Of a stretch of 64,000 nt of DNA, positions 40,472 to 48,242 are shown in pieces. The translations under genes and the position numbers were made by a program. This DNA is from Calditrichota bacterium (GTDB lineage Bacteria > Calditrichota > Calditrichia > Calditrichales > Calditrichaceae). Each line of letters begins with the position of its first letter. Within the stretch, counting starts at the first letter, position 1. Location of the stretch: the NCBI GenBank assembly GCA_024278755.1, contig JAJRSO010000038.1, positions 124,001 through 188,000 of the forward strand, read 5' to 3'. Below the pieces are notes generated by a model. That model searched no databases and was not told the origin of the DNA. It saw only the letters and a list, made by a program, of their open reading frames with translations.

Positions 40472-40617
40472 TTATTTTTTTAAAGTAGATAGCGATCACT
40501 GCAGCGGTTGTTTCGCATTTTGTAAATGGGCTTGTACTTACAGATTTTCAATAGTTTGTGTCGTGTACTGAAATAGATTAAATTTATGAATTATTGAATT
40601 TCATAACGGAGAAAAAG

Positions 40618-41444
40618 ATGCAGGCAATAAAAACAGGGCAGGTAGAATTTGGTGAGGGAAAACCGCTGGTGTTGATCGCCGGTCCCTGTGTAGTGGAATC
40701 GGAACAACTGGTGATGAACGTTGCGGAATACATGGTGGAATTGTGCCATCGGCTTAATATCCCTTATATTTTTAAAGCATCATACGTAAAAGCCAACCGC
40801 ACCAGTATCAATTCCTTTATCGGGCCCGGACCCGTTGAGGGCCTCAACATTCTGCAAAAAGTAAAAACGCAGTTCAATGTACCCATTTTAACCGATATTC
40901 ATCATCCGCAGGAAGCGTCTGTTGCCGCCGAAGTCGCGGACGTCCTGCAAATACCGGCATTCTTAAGCCGTCAAACCGATCTGCTGACAGCCGCCGGACG
41001 TACCGGAAAAATAGTCAATATTAAAAAAGGACAGTTTCTCTCTCCGTTTGATATGGCCAATGCGGCAAAAAAACCGCCTCCACCGGAAACAATCAAATCC
41101 TGCTTACCGAGCGCGGCACCACGTTTGGCTACAATAATCTGGTAGTGGATTTTCGCGGTTTTATGGAAATGAATAAAACCGGTTACCCTGTTATTTACGA
41201 TGTTACACATTCGTTACAACGTCCCGCCGCTTCAGGCAATATTTCCGGCGGACAACCGGAATATGTAAAACAGATGGCGTTGGCGGCAATCGCCACGGGA
41301 ACTTTAAGCGGCTTATTTATCGAAACACATCCCCAACCGAAAAAAGCGCTATCCGATGCACAATCCATGCTGCCTATGGAGCAGACGGAAGACCTGTTGC
41401 AGGCGATAAAAACAATGGAAGAAACGGTAAAAACAATTTATTAA
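40618..41444 (+). CDS. kdsA: KdsA, 3-deoxy-D-manno-octulosonate-8-phosphate synthase, with a -1 frameshift at an A7 tract
   Basis: Condenses arabinose-5-phosphate with PEP, the first committed step to KDO. ATG 40618 is preceded by CGGAG at normal spacing. The N-terminal 150 residues have VLIAGPCVVES, YIFKASYVKANRTSINSF and IVNIKKGQFLSPFDMANAAK. After AAT GCG GCA AAA AAA (A7 tract 41067-41073) the frame turns into CCG CCT CCA and ends at 41145. One base back, the sequence continues as KKTASTGNNQILLTERGTTF, then GYNNLVVD, GYPVIYDVTHSLQRP and the normal C-terminus to 41444. One more A, or -1 slippage on A-AAA-AAA, restores a 275-residue protein of family length. Every catalytic motif survives, so a working gene with a sequencing error or slippage is more likely than a pseudogene. 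Confidence 0.9.
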
Positions 41445-41506: not shown

Positions 41507-42025
41507 ATGCGTTTTAAATTGCAAAAAATTAAGTGGATACTTATGGATGTGGACGGCGTTATGACCGATGGCAGCATCACTTACGCCTCTTCCGGCGAAG
41601 AGATAAAAACCTTTAATGCTCAGGATGGGGCCGGAATTAATCTGGCGCATATGGCCGGATTGCACACGGGAATCATTACCGGCCGGAAATCCGAAATGGT
41701 ACAGCGCCGAATTCGCGATTTAAAATACGACTATTTTAAAGAAGGCGTATCCCGTAAGGCGGCCATGTATGAGAAATTTAAACAGGAGTTTGGCGTCAGT
41801 GACGATCAGGTTTGTTATATGGGGGATGATTTTGCTGATTTGGGTATTTTGTTACAGGTAGGATTTAGTGTGGCGCCCTCCAATGCCCGCGATGAAATTA
41901 AAGCTGTTTGTGATTTTGTCACTCTTGCACCAGGCGGTTCCGGGGCGGTTCGGGAGCTAATTGACAAGGTATTAAAAGCGCAGGGGAAACTGTTTTCGCT
42001 TTTCGAGCAGTTTAAAGAATTATAA
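41507..42025 (+). CDS. kdsC: KdsC, KDO-8-phosphate phosphatase (HAD family)
   Basis: 172 residues. HAD motif I is Asp14 and Asp16 in WILMDVDGVMTDGSI; motif II is TGRKSE; motif III and IV regions are VSRKAAMYEKF and VCYMGDDFADLGIL. The absence of a cap domain is typical of the tetrameric KdsC group. It dephosphorylates KDO-8-P, the product of KdsA encoded 62 nt upstream. AGAGGA precedes the ATG. Confidence 0.95.
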   Translation: MRFKLQKIKWILMDVDGVMTDGSITYASSGEEIKTFNAQDGAGINLAHMAGLHTGIITGRKSEMVQRRIRDLKYDYFKEGVSRKAAMYEKFKQEFGVSDDQVCYMGDDFADLGILLQVGFSVAPSNARDEIKAVCDFVTLAPGGSGAVRELIDKVLKAQGKLFSLFEQFKEL

Positions 42026-42138: not shown

Positions 42139-42978
42139 ATGAAAATCAAGAAAACCGGTTTTTTTATTTTATTACTGAGCGTTACAACCGGATTCGCCCA
42201 AATCCGGGTAGTCATTGCCGATTTTAAAAATGAAAGTTCGGTAATATTTCTGGATTCATGGGAGCGCAATGTACCGGATATGCTGCAATCCGCCTTATCC
42301 CGTTCGGATAAGATTACGATATTGCAACGTAAAAAACTGGATGCGGTTTTCGAGGAACAAAAACTGGCTTTGGCCGGATTCTCGGAAGACAGCGCTTTGG
42401 TAAAGCAGATTGGCAACCTGGCCGCCGCCGATGTAATCCTCTCGGGCAGTATTTATAAAACGGGCAAAAAATACCGCATTAATGTGAATATTACGCGGGT
42501 TAAAACAACCCGTGTAATCACCGAAATTGCCGAAGCGCCCGATTACAGGCATCTGGAAGAGATGATGGATATTCTGGCAAATAATATTGCGTTCCAACTG
42601 ACTGGGAATAAAAAATATATACAAAAAAAAGTGATTGCCGATTATCCGACACTCTACTTTGCCTCCGCTGCCGGTGGGTTTTTACTGACAGCCGCATTGT
42701 TTAACGGTCAGTATCGGAATAATCTGGATAAGTATAAAGCAAATACAAATATTAGTAAATTTGATATCTATTATGATAGGGCCAATTCCGCACATAAACT
42801 GATGGTCTTAACAACCAGTCTTGGAGTAGCGGCCATTGCAGGCGCGGCCTACTGCTGGATTGGCAACATGACCGGGGGCGCCGTAAAAGCGCACCCACAA
42901 AATGAAATAAAAATTGAGCCGGGAGTAAGCTGGTTTCCGGGAGAAGGGGGGCGATTAAGTGTTAACATATCTTTTTAG
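42139..42978 (+). CDS. CsgG/FlgO-like secreted or membrane-anchored protein, function unknown
   Basis: 279 residues with a signal peptide (MKIKKTGFFILLLSVTTGFA). Residues 20-150 resemble the CsgG/curli-assembly-like alpha/beta domain: IRVVIADFKNESS, DMLQSALSRSDKITILQRKK, LAAADVILSGSIYKTGKKYR and NVNITRVKTTRVI. The C-terminal part contains two hydrophobic segments (TLYFASAAGGFLLTAALF near 175 and a second near 225). No lipobox Cys, unlike true CsgG. It overlaps the next gene by 20 bp and sits between kdsC and kdsD. A role in envelope assembly is inferred only from context. Confidence 0.7.
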   Translation: MKIKKTGFFILLLSVTTGFAQIRVVIADFKNESSVIFLDSWERNVPDMLQSALSRSDKITILQRKKLDAVFEEQKLALAGFSEDSALVKQIGNLAAADVILSGSIYKTGKKYRINVNITRVKTTRVITEIAEAPDYRHLEEMMDILANNIAFQLTGNKKYIQKKVIADYPTLYFASAAGGFLLTAALFNGQYRNNLDKYKANTNISKFDIYYDRANSAHKLMVLTTSLGVAAIAGAAYCWIGNMTGGAVKAHPQNEIKIEPGVSWFPGEGGRLSVNISF

Positions 42979-43738
42979 CTTGCTTCTGCTGTTTGTTTTT
43001 GCCGGATGTTCCGATATCCCGCGGAACAATCTGTTAGATCCCAAAAATCCCGATGGATACGACGATTCTGTGATATTAATCGAAGCCTTTGTAAACACAA
43101 GTAGCGCCATTCCCGGCGGTTACAGCGAAATGGCCGAAGCGGGTCTGGATGACGTGCAGTCTTTTTACGGTAACCGGGTTATTGTTGTAGAATATCACCG
43201 GGATATTCAGGAGTATGACGACTCGCTAAATACCGTGGCCACTAATATTCGCTTTACCGAACTGCACGATGTTTACACGGCCGGAAAAGAAATTCCCCGC
43301 GCTGTGCCCGATATATTTATCAATGGAGCCGAACGGCGGGTAAGCGGCGCTTCCGGCGCGTCTTCCGTGGCCGAACTGGTTCGTCAAAAAACGGCGCCTT
43401 TAATTGATATAAAAAATTTCATAAGTATAGATATTGAAGTGAAGTTTTTACACAGTGATGAACTACAGGTAACCTGTCGCATTGCGTCACTTGGCAATAA
43501 AGCGGCCGAAAATAAAAAACTGCGTCTAATTTATATTGGTGAAGAGGAAAACGACAAAACTTGGCGCGCGGTACAGGATATGGTAATGAGCGAAAACATG
43601 GCGGATATTTCTAAGGGCGGGATTGTAAAAGTAATATTTGAACCGTATTCATATACGCAGAAACCCGGAAAAATTGTGGTTGCGGTTACTTCTAAAAACG
43701 GACTGCAAATTGATCAGGCCATGGTAAAGGAGCTATAA
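42959..43738 (+). CDS. Lipoprotein with Omp28/thioredoxin-like region, function unknown
   Basis: 259 residues from a GTG start. Lipoprotein signal MLTYLFSLLLLFVFAGCSD gives lipidated Cys17, and DIPRNNLLDPKNPD directly after it is typical of FCB surface lipoproteins. Residues 40-140 resemble the thioredoxin-like Omp28 domain (VIVVEYHRDIQEYDDSLNTV, then IPRAVPDIFINGAERRVSGA), but the redox CxxC is missing (AGLDDVQSFYG at that place). The C-terminal half looks like a beta-sandwich. It overlaps the preceding gene by 20 bp and the next starts one base after its stop, so the three are co-translated. Confidence 0.7.
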   Translation: MLTYLFSLLLLFVFAGCSDIPRNNLLDPKNPDGYDDSVILIEAFVNTSSAIPGGYSEMAEAGLDDVQSFYGNRVIVVEYHRDIQEYDDSLNTVATNIRFTELHDVYTAGKEIPRAVPDIFINGAERRVSGASGASSVAELVRQKTAPLIDIKNFISIDIEVKFLHSDELQVTCRIASLGNKAAENKKLRLIYIGEEENDKTWRAVQDMVMSENMADISKGGIVKVIFEPYSYTQKPGKIVVAVTSKNGLQIDQAMVKEL

Positions 43739-43739
43739 A

Positions 43740-44435
43740 ATGGCGAAATTAAAACTATGGATAGCATTGCTGCTTCCTGCCGTTTATATTTCCTGTTCGG
43801 GCATAGACGATCTGATTTATGATCGCCATCCGGAACTGAGTGAAATGCAGATTTCTGCGTCTCGGGTTTCTCCGTTTGATACGGTCTATGCATCCATCGA
43901 AGCAAAAAACCCTATTGATGGTATTCTGGAATACAAATGGACGGTAAAAAACCTTGGAAACGGGAATAGTGTAAACAGCGCTATTGATGGCCCGGCTGAC
44001 CTCGATTCTGTACGCTGGATTGCGCCTATTGCCGGAGGGTTTTATGAACTGAAAGTAACTGTAAGCAATACGGCAAAAAAATCTACTGCCGCCAAACAGA
44101 TAGAAGTAATTGTAAGCGATAAGCCGGTGGTTGATTTGCGCAAACCGGTTTCGGGCGCGTATTTTACTGCCGGACAGTCGATATTAATTGAAGCGCGGGC
44201 CGAACATGTCAACGGTCTTTCATGGGTTAAGGCTTTTATACAAGATAGTTTAATCGGGCAAAGCAGTCAGAATACCAGTGGTATCTATCCGTTCAGCGCG
44301 CTTGCCACAAACAATATGGTAGGAAAAACAATCGTTCGTATCGAAGCAAAAACCGCTTTTGTCGAACAGGCCGGAGCGGATAGTGTGGAAATTGAAATTG
44401 GTGGAATAATACCGGGGAAAAATGGACATAAATAA
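43740..44435 (+). CDS. Lipoprotein with Ig/PKD-like domains, function unknown
   Basis: 231 residues. Signal MAKLKLWIALLLPAVYISCS suggests lipidation at Cys19. Two beta-sandwich segments follow: one PKD-like (about 35-125, with LEYKWTVKNLG, RWIAPIAGGFYELKVTVSNT) and one Ig-like (about 130-225, with PVSGAYFTAGQSILIEARAE). No catalytic motif. The last 14 bases overlap the start of kdsD, so it is embedded in the KDO/LPS operon. It may be a structural component of the envelope; no named family is recognised. Confidence 0.7.
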   Translation: MAKLKLWIALLLPAVYISCSGIDDLIYDRHPELSEMQISASRVSPFDTVYASIEAKNPIDGILEYKWTVKNLGNGNSVNSAIDGPADLDSVRWIAPIAGGFYELKVTVSNTAKKSTAAKQIEVIVSDKPVVDLRKPVSGAYFTAGQSILIEARAEHVNGLSWVKAFIQDSLIGQSSQNTSGIYPFSALATNNMVGKTIVRIEAKTAFVEQAGADSVEIEIGGIIPGKNGHK

Positions 44436-45393
44436 AATAATAGAAATAGGGCGCAAAGTTATTCGTATCGAACAAGAAGCGGTTGCCGCTGCCGAGACGC
44501 GTATCGGCGAAAATTTTGCCAGAGCCGTTGAACTAATTTTGCAAAGCAGCGGAAGGGTAATGGTCACCGGTATGGGAAAGTCCGGCGCCATCGGAAAAAA
44601 AATTGCCTCAACGTTAGCCAGCACAGGAACGACCGCGGCTTTTATGCATCCGGCTGAAGGGATTCATGGCGATCTGGGGATGATCCTGAAAACAGATGTG
44701 GTGATTGCCATATCCAAAAGCGGGGAGACGGATGAACTCGTTCATCTGTTGCCTAGTTTCAAACGGCTCGAAGTGCCGCTGATTGCCATGACAGGAAAAA
44801 AAGAATCGACCCTGGCCCGTTATGCGGACGCCGTGCTGGATATCGGTGTAAAAGAAGAAGCCTGTCCCAACGATTTAGCGCCTACGGCCAGCACAACCGT
44901 CACTCTTGCCGTTGGAGATGCCCTGGCGGTAGCGCTTTTGGAAAGCAGGGGGTTCTCAAAAGAAGATTTTGCCATTTTACATCCCGGCGGGGCTTTGGGT
45001 AAAAAACTGCTGCTTCGTGTTTCGGATATTATGGAAAGCGGTGAACTCTTGCCGTCCTGCCGACCGTCCGATCCAATGCGGACGGCAATCATGGAAATGG
45101 CCCATAAGAGAGGCATTTGCCCGGTCGTCGATGACGATCGAAAACTGCTGGGAGTGTTAACCACCGGCGATTTGAATCGCCTCATTGAAAAGACCGAAAA
45201 ATTTTCCTCTATTCCAGCTGCCGAGGTTATGAATCGCTCCCCCAAATTTGTTTACAAAGACGACCTGGCCAGCATCGCCTATCGTGAAATGGAAAAGCAC
45301 CGCATCATTAGTATGCCGGTTTTAGATAAGGAGCGCCGGCTAACCGGAGTGCTTCATCTGCATGATTTAATGCGCGAGGGAATTTCGGGATGA
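44422..45393 (+). CDS. kdsD: KdsD, D-arabinose-5-phosphate isomerase
   Basis: 323 residues: an SIS domain (about 40-170: VMVTGMGKSGAIGKKIASTL, FMHPAEGIHGDLGMI, AISKSGETDELVHLLP, PNDLAPTASTTVTLAVGDAL) followed by two CBS domains (about 205-320: MRTAIMEMAHKRGICPVVDD, then VLDKERRLTGVLHLHDLMR). This is the KdsD/KpsF architecture. It converts ribulose-5-phosphate to arabinose-5-phosphate for KdsA. It overlaps the previous gene by 14 bp and the next by 4 bp. Confidence 0.95.
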   Translation: MDINKIIEIGRKVIRIEQEAVAAAETRIGENFARAVELILQSSGRVMVTGMGKSGAIGKKIASTLASTGTTAAFMHPAEGIHGDLGMILKTDVVIAISKSGETDELVHLLPSFKRLEVPLIAMTGKKESTLARYADAVLDIGVKEEACPNDLAPTASTTVTLAVGDALAVALLESRGFSKEDFAILHPGGALGKKLLLRVSDIMESGELLPSCRPSDPMRTAIMEMAHKRGICPVVDDDRKLLGVLTTGDLNRLIEKTEKFSSIPAAEVMNRSPKFVYKDDLASIAYREMEKHRIISMPVLDKERRLTGVLHLHDLMREGISG

Positions 45394-45944
45394 TGCAACA
45401 AATTTGGACGTTATTATTCTTTACTTCAGTCCTTTTTACCTCAGTCTCCTGTTCTTCTGACCGGCAAAAAGAAATGTCTGCGACGGATAACAATAGTTAT
45501 CCCGATCAGGAAAGCTGGCAGGCGGTTTTACGCGTTACCAAAGACGGACGGACTACCGGATTGATTCATGCCGGGCATATCCAGAAATTCTCAACAAAAA
45601 AAATTACGCTGCTGAAGGCGGGTTTAAAAGTGGATTTTTTTGACGCCGATGGGAATCACTCCTCGGTACTAAATTCGCGGGGCGGAAAAATTTTTGACGA
45701 TCGCCAGGACATGACAGCCTTCGGAAATGTTGTTGTCGTTTCGGACAGCGGACTGACACTTTTTACCGATACGCTACGATGGAATAATAAAGAACAAAAG
45801 ATCCATTCCGATATCCCCGTCGTTTTTATTTCCGATGAGGGCGATACACTTTACGGCGATAGTTTTAAGTCGGATCCTGACCTTGTAAATTATGAAATCG
45901 AAAACCCACACGGAAAAAGCTCAAAAATAATTTCAATCGAATAA
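45390..45944 (+). CDS. lptC: LptC-like LPS-export protein
   Basis: 184 residues. N-terminal hydrophobic segment ending in SVSCSSD, so either a lipoprotein or a single-span anchor. The body is a beta-jellyroll: GLIHAGHIQKFSTKKITLLK, then DGNHSSVLNSRGGKIFDDRQ, DMTAFGNVVVVSDSGLTLFT and DTLYGDSFKSDPDL, the LptC/DUF1239 pattern. LptC passes LPS from the inner-membrane LptBFG to LptA. Position between kdsD and the LptA/LptB genes agrees. Confidence 0.85.
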   Translation: MMQQIWTLLFFTSVLFTSVSCSSDRQKEMSATDNNSYPDQESWQAVLRVTKDGRTTGLIHAGHIQKFSTKKITLLKAGLKVDFFDADGNHSSVLNSRGGKIFDDRQDMTAFGNVVVVSDSGLTLFTDTLRWNNKEQKIHSDIPVVFISDEGDTLYGDSFKSDPDLVNYEIENPHGKSSKIISIE

Positions 45945-45947
45945 ACG

Positions 45948-47036
45948 ATGCAAAAACACATACTACTAATCTCATATATCTTTCTTATTATTGGATTTCT
46001 GACGGCGCAGCAGAAAGGGCTGGAACTAATCCATGCCGATAAAACCATCGGTAAAAAAATTGCCGGGGAACAGGTACGTATTTTTGAGGGGCTGGTTCAT
46101 TTTCGTCAGGATACGATGGATATGTATTGCAACAGCGCCAGGTTTTTTAGCGAAAAGAACCGCATTGATTTTATGGGATCGGTGCTAATAGATGACGGCC
46201 TTCGTAAACTGCGGGCTGATAAAATTGAGTATTTCCCCAAGACTAAATTTGCCAGATGTCTGAAAAATGTAAAAATTACGGATGCCGAGGACTCTCTTAG
46301 CACACAGTTGTTTACGTTTGATTTTAATACCGAAGAGGCCCGGGCCGATAGCGGAATGTATGTTTATAACCGGACCAACCGGGTGCATATTTGGGGACAA
46401 AAAGGCTGGTATAATCCAAAACAAAAAATGAGCCGTGTTGAAAAGAATGCAAAATTAATGCGTATCGACAGTACCGGAACCGATACGCTAATTATCACAG
46501 CCTCCGAAATGAAATACCAGGAAACCGCTCCGCCTCTGGCCCTGGCCATTAAAAATGTACGCATTAAACAGGGGGCTTTAACGGCTATTTGTGATACCGC
46601 ACGTTTTTTTCCTAAAGATGAAATCGTACAACTTATCCGGCAGCCGCGTGCTTGGTTTGATGATAACGAAATGTCCGGAGCCCGGATGCAGATAGGATTC
46701 GATTCTCTTGGAATTAAAAGAATCGACATTTATGAAAAAGCAAAAGCGATTAATCGGGCCGATTCCCTAAAAGACGAATGGAATTTGCTAAAAGGCAAAG
46801 AAATTCATATGGATATTAAAGATAAAAAGCCACTGCGTATTTCGGCCTATGGCAGCGCTTCCAGTACGTATTACCTGAAAGAGGAAGAAGAGAGCAGCGG
46901 GATGAATTTTGCCACATCGGACACCATTATTGTATATTTTAAAGAAAGTAAAGCCGACAGTATCCGAATCGTAGGCGGAGCTCAAGGCGTTTATTATCCG
47001 CAGGATTATAAAGGAGTAAAAAAAGGTGCAGAGTAA
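45948..47036 (+). CDS. OstA/LptA-like periplasmic LPS-transport protein
   Basis: 362 residues with a signal peptide (MQKHILLISYIFLIIGFLTA). The following repeat units match the OstA/LptA fold: GKKIAGEQVRIFEGLVHFRQ, DTMDMYCNSARFFSEKNRID, FMGSVLIDDGLRKLRADKIE and later AICDTARFFPKDEIVQLIRQ. It is about twice the size of E. coli LptA, so it has two or more jellyroll units and may form a longer bridge through the periplasm. It lies 3 nt after lptC and overlaps lptB by 11 bp. Confidence 0.85.
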   Translation: MQKHILLISYIFLIIGFLTAQQKGLELIHADKTIGKKIAGEQVRIFEGLVHFRQDTMDMYCNSARFFSEKNRIDFMGSVLIDDGLRKLRADKIEYFPKTKFARCLKNVKITDAEDSLSTQLFTFDFNTEEARADSGMYVYNRTNRVHIWGQKGWYNPKQKMSRVEKNAKLMRIDSTGTDTLIITASEMKYQETAPPLALAIKNVRIKQGALTAICDTARFFPKDEIVQLIRQPRAWFDDNEMSGARMQIGFDSLGIKRIDIYEKAKAINRADSLKDEWNLLKGKEIHMDIKDKKPLRISAYGSASSTYYLKEEEESSGMNFATSDTIIVYFKESKADSIRIVGGAQGVYYPQDYKGVKKGAE

Positions 47037-47772
47037 TGGAAAGCGTGCGGTTTTGGATAGCGATGATTTGGTAAAAATCTATGGGAAGCGGCGGGTGGTT
47101 GACCGGGTTTCGGTAAATGTGAAGCAGGGCGAAATTGTAGGCTTGCTTGGCCCAAACGGCGCCGGGAAAACCACAACGTTTTATATGATTACCGGAATGA
47201 TTCGGCCGAATGAGGGATTTATCCGGCTTAATAATAAAAATATTACAAACTTGCCCATGTATCGCCGCGCCAGGCTGGGTGTGGCCTATTTGCCGCAGGA
47301 AGCCTCTATTTTTCGTAAACTTACCGTAGAAGAAAATTTACTGGCTGTGATGCAGATGATTGGCGTTGCTAAAAATGAACAGCGCAAACGTACCGACCAG
47401 TATCTTGAAGAGCTAAATATTACGCATATCGCCAAAAGCAAGGGATATAATTTATCCGGCGGAGAGCGCAGGCGTACAGAAATTGCCCGTACGCTGGTCA
47501 CCAATCCAAAATTCATTCTGCTGGATGAACCGTTTGCCGGAGTCGACCCCATCGCAGTGGAAGATATTCAAAATATTGTTCACGGACTCAAAGAGCGGGG
47601 AATTGGAGTCTTAATTACGGATCATAATGTGCACGAGACCCTGAGCATTACAGACCGAGCCTATCTGTTGTTTGAAGGAAAAATATTGAAAGAAGGCAAT
47701 GCGGAGTTTCTGGCGCAGGACGAAGAAGCGCGGAAACTCTATTTTGGAGATAAATTTCAGCTAAAACGTTAG
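47026..47772 (+). CDS. lptB: LptB, ATPase of the LPS exporter
   Basis: 248 residues from a GTG start with AAGGAG upstream, overlapping the preceding gene by 11 bp. ABC ATPase motifs: LLGPNGAGKTTTFYMITGM, Q-loop YLPQEASIFRKLTVEENLLA, signature NLSGGERRRTEIARTL, Walker B FILLDEPFAGVDPIAVEDIQ and ITDHNVHETLSITDRAYLL. The QEASIFR and DHNVRETL-type motifs are specific for LptB. The membrane partners LptF/LptG are not in the window. The 3' end converges with the next gene (4-bp overlap). Confidence 0.96.
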   Translation: MQSNGKRAVLDSDDLVKIYGKRRVVDRVSVNVKQGEIVGLLGPNGAGKTTTFYMITGMIRPNEGFIRLNNKNITNLPMYRRARLGVAYLPQEASIFRKLTVEENLLAVMQMIGVAKNEQRKRTDQYLEELNITHIAKSKGYNLSGGERRRTEIARTLVTNPKFILLDEPFAGVDPIAVEDIQNIVHGLKERGIGVLITDHNVHETLSITDRAYLLFEGKILKEGNAEFLAQDEEARKLYFGDKFQLKR

Positions 47773-48242
47773 GCTGAAGAAGATACGGAAGTATTAATCT
47801 TCATCCCGTTATTTCCCACAAAAACAGTATTTTGCTCACCGAACATTTTTTTAATCAACATTGGCGAAAGCCGGTGTACGCGCGGTAAATGTACTCGATT
47901 AAAAGGATAAGCCGAATTCATAAGCAGGGCAGATTCGCCGTCAATATATTCGAGATGATATTTTTGATGTTCGAAGAATTTAATTAACTGTTCGGTGGAG
48001 AGTTCGTCAAAACGGATACGAATATCGAACAAAGGACGGTCAATCCCCGAGGGGAAGGGCTGTTTCCGCTCTTCACAGTTTTTTTTAATAACGAGCAACG
48101 CTCTTCTTATTCTTGGAGAAAGCTCGTTTTCCTGGCGCGCCTGCACATAACATCCGGGAATGTTTTCACAGGAGCCCACATAAGTATTCCCGTCAAATTC
48201 TTTTTTTATGATAACTTTCACAATAATTCCGGACTGTTTCAT
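47769..48242 (-). CDS. Single-chain HicB-like/HicA-like fusion protein
   Basis: 157 residues. The N-terminal part (about 6-50) looks like a HicB antitoxin partial RNase-H fold: VKVIIKKEFDGNTYVGSCEN, then IPGCYVQARQENEL. Residues 77-135 resemble the HicA mRNA-interferase fold: STEQLIKFFEHQKYHLEYID, then HLPRVHRLSPMLIKKMF, but the catalytic GSHH-type His position reads GESALLM, so the toxin half is probably inactive. HicA and HicB are normally separate genes. It has its own consensus promoter 24 bp upstream and no ribosome-binding site. A regulatory or RNA-binding role is possible. Domain assignments are by pattern only. Confidence 0.6.
   Translation of the reverse strand: MKQSGIIVKVIIKKEFDGNTYVGSCENIPGCYVQARQENELSPRIRRALLVIKKNCEERKQPFPSGIDRPLFDIRIRFDELSTEQLIKFFEHQKYHLEYIDGESALLMNSAYPFNRVHLPRVHRLSPMLIKKMFGEQNTVFVGNNGMKINTSVSSSA

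Follow-up and report, generated by a model that had tools for sequence, protein, structure and literature searches.

One described system close to the locus reported here is the Lpt system (LptA-G): the three genes that we call A, B and C are encoded in an lptC-lptA-lptB operon. However, A, B and C are not themselves Lpt proteins, the gene for LptE lies apart from them, and operons for lipopolysaccharide (LPS) exist without the trio. The relatives of the individual proteins lie in other families. The periplasmic domain of A has the fold common to LpoB, TolB-N, GNA1162 (DUF799) and the N-domain of CsgG, but A differs from this group in having no lipobox, no TolB beta-propeller and no CsgG barrel, and in carrying an extra helical hairpin and a C-terminal beta-hairpin. 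CsgG is itself a lipoprotein. The FlgO, FlgP and FlgT proteins of vibrios, which are outer-membrane flagellar accessories, are likewise three small envelope proteins of which one has a TolB-N-like fold, and some A members give weak FlgO or FlgT_M matches; the trio is unlike them in that no flagellar genes were recognised nearby and the folds of B and C are different. Like B, the Omp28 lipoproteins, the Omp28-related selenoproteins (NF045500) and HBP35 of Porphyromonas gingivalis are lipoproteins with a thioredoxin fold and a beta-sandwich, although no homologue of B has a CxxC motif, B has no in-frame TGA, and its identity to HBP35 is only ∼11%. HBP35 is reported to combine a thioredoxin motif with an attachment domain at its C terminus (PMC2907840). 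The domains of C are shared with PKD/Big_7 lipoproteins, from which C differs in having two domains only and in always being third in the trio. The trio is thus made of ordinary known domains in an undescribed combination: our literature search found no paper on it, queries pairing GNA1162 with CsgG and Omp28 with thioredoxin returned nothing relevant, and a search on operons and the outer membrane of Calditrichota found nothing.

Gene layout and the A-B junction

We analysed a window of 64,000 nucleotides from a Calditrichota genome (G000:C27:124001-188000), in which the trio lies between kdsC and kdsD (Table 1) as originally predicted, with the flanking kdsC, kdsD, lptC and lptA confirmed by family models. 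The prediction that the genes overlap or nearly touch each other and kdsD was also borne out: A and B overlap by 20 nt, B and C are 1 nt apart, and C overlaps kdsD by 14 nt, with a gap of 113 nt between kdsC and A. Each of A, B and C is conserved to 20-30% identity in dozens of genomes, with the lipobox cysteines of B and C and the fold residues of all three retained in alignments of the homologues; they are therefore real genes, and chance ORFs can be discounted. Promoter and terminator scans performed no better than on shuffled sequence.

Table 1. Features of the trio locus in the window.
Feature	Position	Strand	Evidence
kdsA, split in two ORFs (40594-41145 and 41145-41444)	40594..41444	+	ORFs, sequence, TIGR01362 matches in two pieces of contig C27
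kdsC	41507..42025	+	TIGR01670 E 3e-45
gene A	42139..42978	+	Pfam, homologues, AlphaFold model, Foldseek
gene A, alpha/beta domain (aa 22-135), fold of TolB-N, LpoB, GNA1162	42202..42543	+	Pfam, model, Foldseek
gene A, helical hairpin (aa 171-245), hydrophobic stretches at ∼aa 171-189 and ∼221-239	42649..42873	+	model, homologues
putative Shine-Dalgarno-like purine-rich stretch within 3′ end of A, directly 5′ of the GTG of B	42940..42951	+	sequence; inferred
gene B, GTG start	42959..43738	+	NCBIfam, homologues, model, Foldseek
gene C	43740..44435	+	Pfam, homologues, PDB-sequence profile search
kdsD	44422..45393	+	TIGR00393 E 3e-95
lptC	45390..45944	+	TIGR04409 E 8e-19
lptA (OstA-like)	45948..47036	+	PF13100 E 1.5e-17, PF03968
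lptB	47026..47772	+	ORF, ABC-transporter sequence; ∼67-84% identity to same-place lptB of relatives

The frameshift that splits kdsA lies near a run of seven A residues (about 41069-41075) and may be a sequence error in the metagenome-assembled genome or real decay; the KdsA pieces are only ∼40-55% identical to other KdsA proteins of the family, compared with ∼70% for KdsD. Beyond the operon, a small gene on the minus strand (47769-48242), antisense to and abutting lptB, has a HicB-like “GSCENIPGCYVQ” stretch by eye; it is conserved in the sister genome G004 (L089:150-818) and has no Pfam match at E 0.001.

Between the stop codon of A and the lipobox cysteine of B there are 9.3 codons in the window, and no more than 15.3 in 25 of the 29 loci. 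A typical signal peptide does not fit into this space, so that in these loci B must start within A or at its very end. A start at an overlap of exactly 20 or 23 nt is found in 17 loci, where it is usually GTG or TTG; the KSB1-type loci K138, K139, K141 and K142 are without the tight overlap. Because the signal peptide of B starts inside A in most loci, A and B are probably coupled in translation, as judged from the layout of the genes. It had been proposed that translation of the whole trio is tied to its neighbours and to LPS production; the conserved overlap upholds this for A and B only, and 12 Calditrichota without the trio speak against a tie to LPS production in general. The overlap itself (42959-42978) encodes two conserved features in different frames, namely the terminal strand of A, ending in Phe, and the start of the B signal peptide. 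Phe is the last residue of A in every aligned homologue, including those from loci without the overlap, so the overlap cannot be its sole cause.

Domain composition of the three proteins

Protein A starts with a signal peptide, continues with an alpha/beta domain and a helical hairpin, which includes two hydrophobic helices, and closes with a beta-hairpin (AlphaFold model, pLDDT 84). Its signal peptide mostly ends in AQ, and a Cys lipobox is absent from the A alignments. The nearest solved structures are TolB, LpoB and GNA1162, with 7mx5, 4q6l and 4hrv found by Foldseek at E ∼5e-5 and probability 1.00; a profile search of PDB sequences with A found no relative. Two Pfam families score above their cut-offs, CsgG (E 2e-11, over profile positions 9-100 of 210 only) and LpoB (1.4e-5), and these recur among the A homologues (CsgG in 24 of 25, LpoB in 19 of 25), with TolB_N in 2 of 25 and weak FlgO and FlgT_M matches in some. 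The original description of A as CsgG-like with two hydrophobic segments holds for the N-terminal alpha/beta domain and for the two hydrophobic stretches, which recur in homologues covering that region, but not for the rest of CsgG, as only the N-terminal part of the profile is matched and the model shows a helical hairpin in place of barrel-forming segments. For the C-terminal part of A (117 residues) there was no clear paralogue elsewhere in the genome, the best other match having E 0.6.

Protein B was expected to be a lipoprotein with an Omp28-like region lacking CxxC, and this proved correct. It has a lipobox (Cys17), a thioredoxin fold at aa 39-149 and a beta-sandwich at aa 155-258 (model pLDDT 93), and its nearest structure is HBP35 (5y1a; Foldseek E 1.9e-10, TM 0.63). 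Sequence similarity to the NCBIfam Omp28 lipoprotein model NF033782 is weak (E 1e-4), the 21.6 bits falling short of the curated score of 150 bits, and weak Omp28 matches occur in 5-6 of 27 B members. After the signal peptide, CxxC is found in none of 34 B homologues, although a few of them have a single Cys close to where it would lie; a thioredoxin-type oxidoreductase, or disulfide enzyme, is thereby rejected. Matches of B to MS2 coat protein in the PDB-sequence profile search look like chance. Two Omp28-like frames with one in-frame TGA each, L189 (G167:C5:131793-132410) and L190 (G175:C98:2121-2750), are possibly Omp28-related selenoproteins and redox-active cousins of B.

The assignment of C as an Ig/PKD-like lipoprotein is likewise confirmed, by a lipobox (Cys19), a PKD-like domain and a Big_7 Ig domain (Pfam E 4e-7). 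Among 24 C members, Big_7 is found in 23 and PKD in 12, and a profile search of PDB sequences with C returned mainly Ig-, PKD- and FnIII-like modules. C is tandemly duplicated in L093 (G003) and L104 (G016), where open frames of 358 and 321 aa hold parts of both copies.

Distribution and history of the trio

Searches of relatives with each of the three proteins placed A, B and C next to one another. In families f1, f2 and f4, the majority of genomes have the arrangement kdsC-A-B-C-kdsD-lptC-lptA-lptB. B is present in 25 of 40 Calditrichota genomes, a count that includes G038 and G039, where B consists of contig-end pieces only. In 20 of the 25 the trio belongs to the LPS locus; kds genes accompany it in 19, and the sister genome G004 (89% complete) is without them, its trio being joined directly to lptC in the order A-B-C-lptC-lptA-lptB (L089, G004:C56); in G004 there was no KdsD match and no KdsA above the cut-off. 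An AMP-binding gene of acyl-CoA-ligase type lies upstream of A there. In the other five genomes (G028, G035, G036, G038 and G039) the trio is elsewhere. In G028 and G038 (L158, L159) kdsC was not found between kdsA and kdsD, and in G028 this interval holds an exported 450-aa protein of an unclassified family. The locus L122 (JAGHBR010000146.1), labelled “Caldisericaceae”, has the trio in the same position as Calditrichota G012:C137, and its label looks wrong. In L128, from a metagenome-assembled genome titled Caldithrix abyssi (a cultured species), A, B and the first part of C follow kdsC.

Fifteen genomes are without B, and all 12 of their kdsC-kdsD junctions that could be read are closed, running kdsA-kdsC-kdsD and then lptC-lptA-lptB where the contig goes on. 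They include G011 (same family), G015, from the genus of G017, G018 and G020, and ten others. LPS genes thus do not need the trio. KdsD was found in 35 of the 40 genomes and LptE in 34, with or without the trio, and in the genome of the window LptE is encoded away from it (G000:C77). Matches to the LptD profile PF04453 occur in only 5 of 40 genomes, too sparse for comparing LptD distribution.

Beyond the phylum, a scan of one genome per species gave 28 loci, from Calditrichota/Calditrichia/Caldithrix, KSB1 and other bacteria, among them K134-K143 (loci L134-L143). The trio is flanked by kds genes in K140-K142, with K140 beginning at B on a contig edge, and K139 reads pyrG, A-B-C, a lipid A acyltransferase gene and lptC-lptA-lptB; in K134-K138 and K143 the trio is apart from recognised LPS genes. 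A wider search of 385 genomes yielded four strong B orthologues outside Calditrichota: G359, with kdsA-A-B-C-kdsD-lptC-lptA-lptB, G092 and G235, where the trio stands alone, and G366, identical in sequence to K143. Linkage to kds-lptCAB outside Calditrichota amounts to five loci. Wherever a contig spans all three genes, in Calditrichota, KSB1 or other lineages, the order and strand of A-B-C are constant. Of the 25 Calditrichota with B, 20 thus show the proposed linkage to kds and lpt genes, as do five loci from other lineages, whereas five Calditrichota and several others do not. Scattering together with loss of linkage in close relatives had been named as evidence against the proposal; the trio is often unlinked but never scattered.

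In a tree of A+B+C the in-operon trios fall in two deep clades, one from KSB1 and one from f1/f2/f4 Calditrichota, each with unlinked sisters, and linkage changes 3 times on this tree against 8.8 in shuffles. G015 and G011 look like losses of the trio, since in the LPS-gene tree they nest among trio-bearing genomes; both trees are quick, with moderate support. The simplest reading of these sequence comparisons is an ancestral linkage to the LPS operon followed by loss or relocation, although the trio may instead have been inserted twice, separately, at the same kdsC-kdsD junction.

Possible roles of the trio

The lone trios found away from LPS genes in several lineages show that A, B and C form a unit of their own. 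In G004 and K139, whose kds genes have disappeared from the locus, the trio has stayed beside lptCAB, which makes a link to LPS export or outer-membrane assembly more likely than one to KDO synthesis. In an indirect, post hoc rate-covariation (mirror-tree) test of 15 pairs in 15 genomes, run on saturated distances after removal of slow genes and taking kdsD and lptB to represent the species background, A covaried with LptA at 0.77 (0.76 without order f2, as for all bracketed values here) and with B at 0.58 (0.49), compared with 0.35 (-0.05) for LptC-LptA and 0.24 (0.00) and 0.16 (0.08) for the controls A-LptE and LptA-LptE; other pairs, B-LptE at 0.54 (0.38) among them, were significant as well. 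That the rate of A tracks those of LptA and B is a weak hint that A may work at the Lpt bridge.

Our preferred explanation, which we hold tentatively, is that A, B and C would form a largely vertically inherited three-protein envelope complex that is optional for LPS production. A would be exported and present a periplasmic docking domain of TolB-N/LpoB type, anchored via its helical hairpin, while B, with a thioredoxin fold without redox site and a beta-sandwich, and C, with two Ig-like domains, would be lipoproteins near the outer membrane. The overlapping and probably coupled translation of A and B would keep these partners in step, and a position inside the kds-lptCAB operon would have the trio co-expressed with LPS assembly. 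The in-operon trio would then most likely serve as a scaffold or adaptor, placed either at the Lpt bridge in the periplasm (LptA) or at the outer membrane, and be neither an enzyme nor a pore. In a more specific version, which we consider rather doubtful, the trio would serve the LPS bridge as a lineage-specific accessory, in which A would dock on the long, OstA-like LptA and, with B and C, tie the bridge to the outer membrane or tune LPS delivery; we know of no Lpt accessory with such a role.

Against the preferred explanation, a passenger module would lead one to expect empty sites and unlinked trios just as much. An envelope or surface complex that is self-contained and unrelated to LPS, and has long been carried along between kdsC and kdsD in a well-expressed housekeeping operon, is a real possibility: it fits the 12 Calditrichota with a closed junction and no trio, the trios off LPS genes in G028, G035, G036, G038, K134-K138, K143, G092 and G235, and the finding of LptE in 34 of 40 genomes, trio-bearing or not. 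It accounts less well for an LPS context kept in two deep clades despite turnover of the neighbours (G004, K139, G359), and for a covariation of A with LptA that exceeds that of known Lpt partners.

The remaining alternatives give A, B or C a more familiar function. An envelope-stress or growth-control accessory resembling LpoB or TolB, with a peptidoglycan synthase or a Tol protein as the docking partner of A, and with B and C relaying the state of the outer membrane, would suit the fold of A and its LpoB and TolB_N matches (19 and 2 of 25 members), but this fold is generic and the loci read had no recognisable PBP or Tol gene next to the trio; we hold this reading to be very improbable. We regard as similarly improbable an LPS-export part proper that replaces LptE or helps to fold LptD, for example as a redox chaperone. 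The trio does adjoin lptC-lptA-lptB, and B has a thioredoxin fold; however, CxxC is missing from all 34 B homologues, 12 genomes have the LPS operon without the trio, and LptE is encoded elsewhere (G000:C77) and occurs with and without the trio, so that the trio is not a missing LptE. The trio proteins have no match to PF04390 (LptE) in Pfam. The 12 closed junctions lacking B speak against an obligatory Lpt component; the original prediction that no known LPS-export part corresponds to these genes agrees with the absence of a match to any classical Lpt part. Least probable of all is an outer-membrane secretion machine exporting a fibre or polysaccharide, with A as a CsgG-type pore and B and C as lipoprotein accessories. 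In its favour, 24 of 25 A homologues match CsgG in Pfam, but A matches only positions 9-100 of the 210 in that profile, the hydrophobic segments in its model are alpha-helical instead of barrel hairpins, its top PDB matches are TolB-N, LpoB and GNA1162 and not CsgG, it has no lipobox whereas CsgG is lipidated, and no secreted-subunit gene was recognised beside the lone trios. The partial profile and the fold largely refute a CsgG pore.

The suggestion of an undescribed envelope-assembly module tied to LPS thus survives in part: the trio is conserved and often in the LPS operon, probably ancestrally, but it is dispensable and often elsewhere. It is best read as an undescribed, dispensable three-protein envelope complex, the ancestral form of which was probably co-expressed with LPS export. 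Almost no work seems to exist on the biology of the envelope in Calditrichota and KSB1, and a trio kept beside lptCAB in two deep lineages and cleanly absent in others offers natural presence/absence pairs for an accessory of LPS or the outer membrane. Should it be unrelated to LPS, the trio would still constitute a defined periplasmic module, so far undescribed, one member of which is a redox-dead lipoprotein with a thioredoxin fold.
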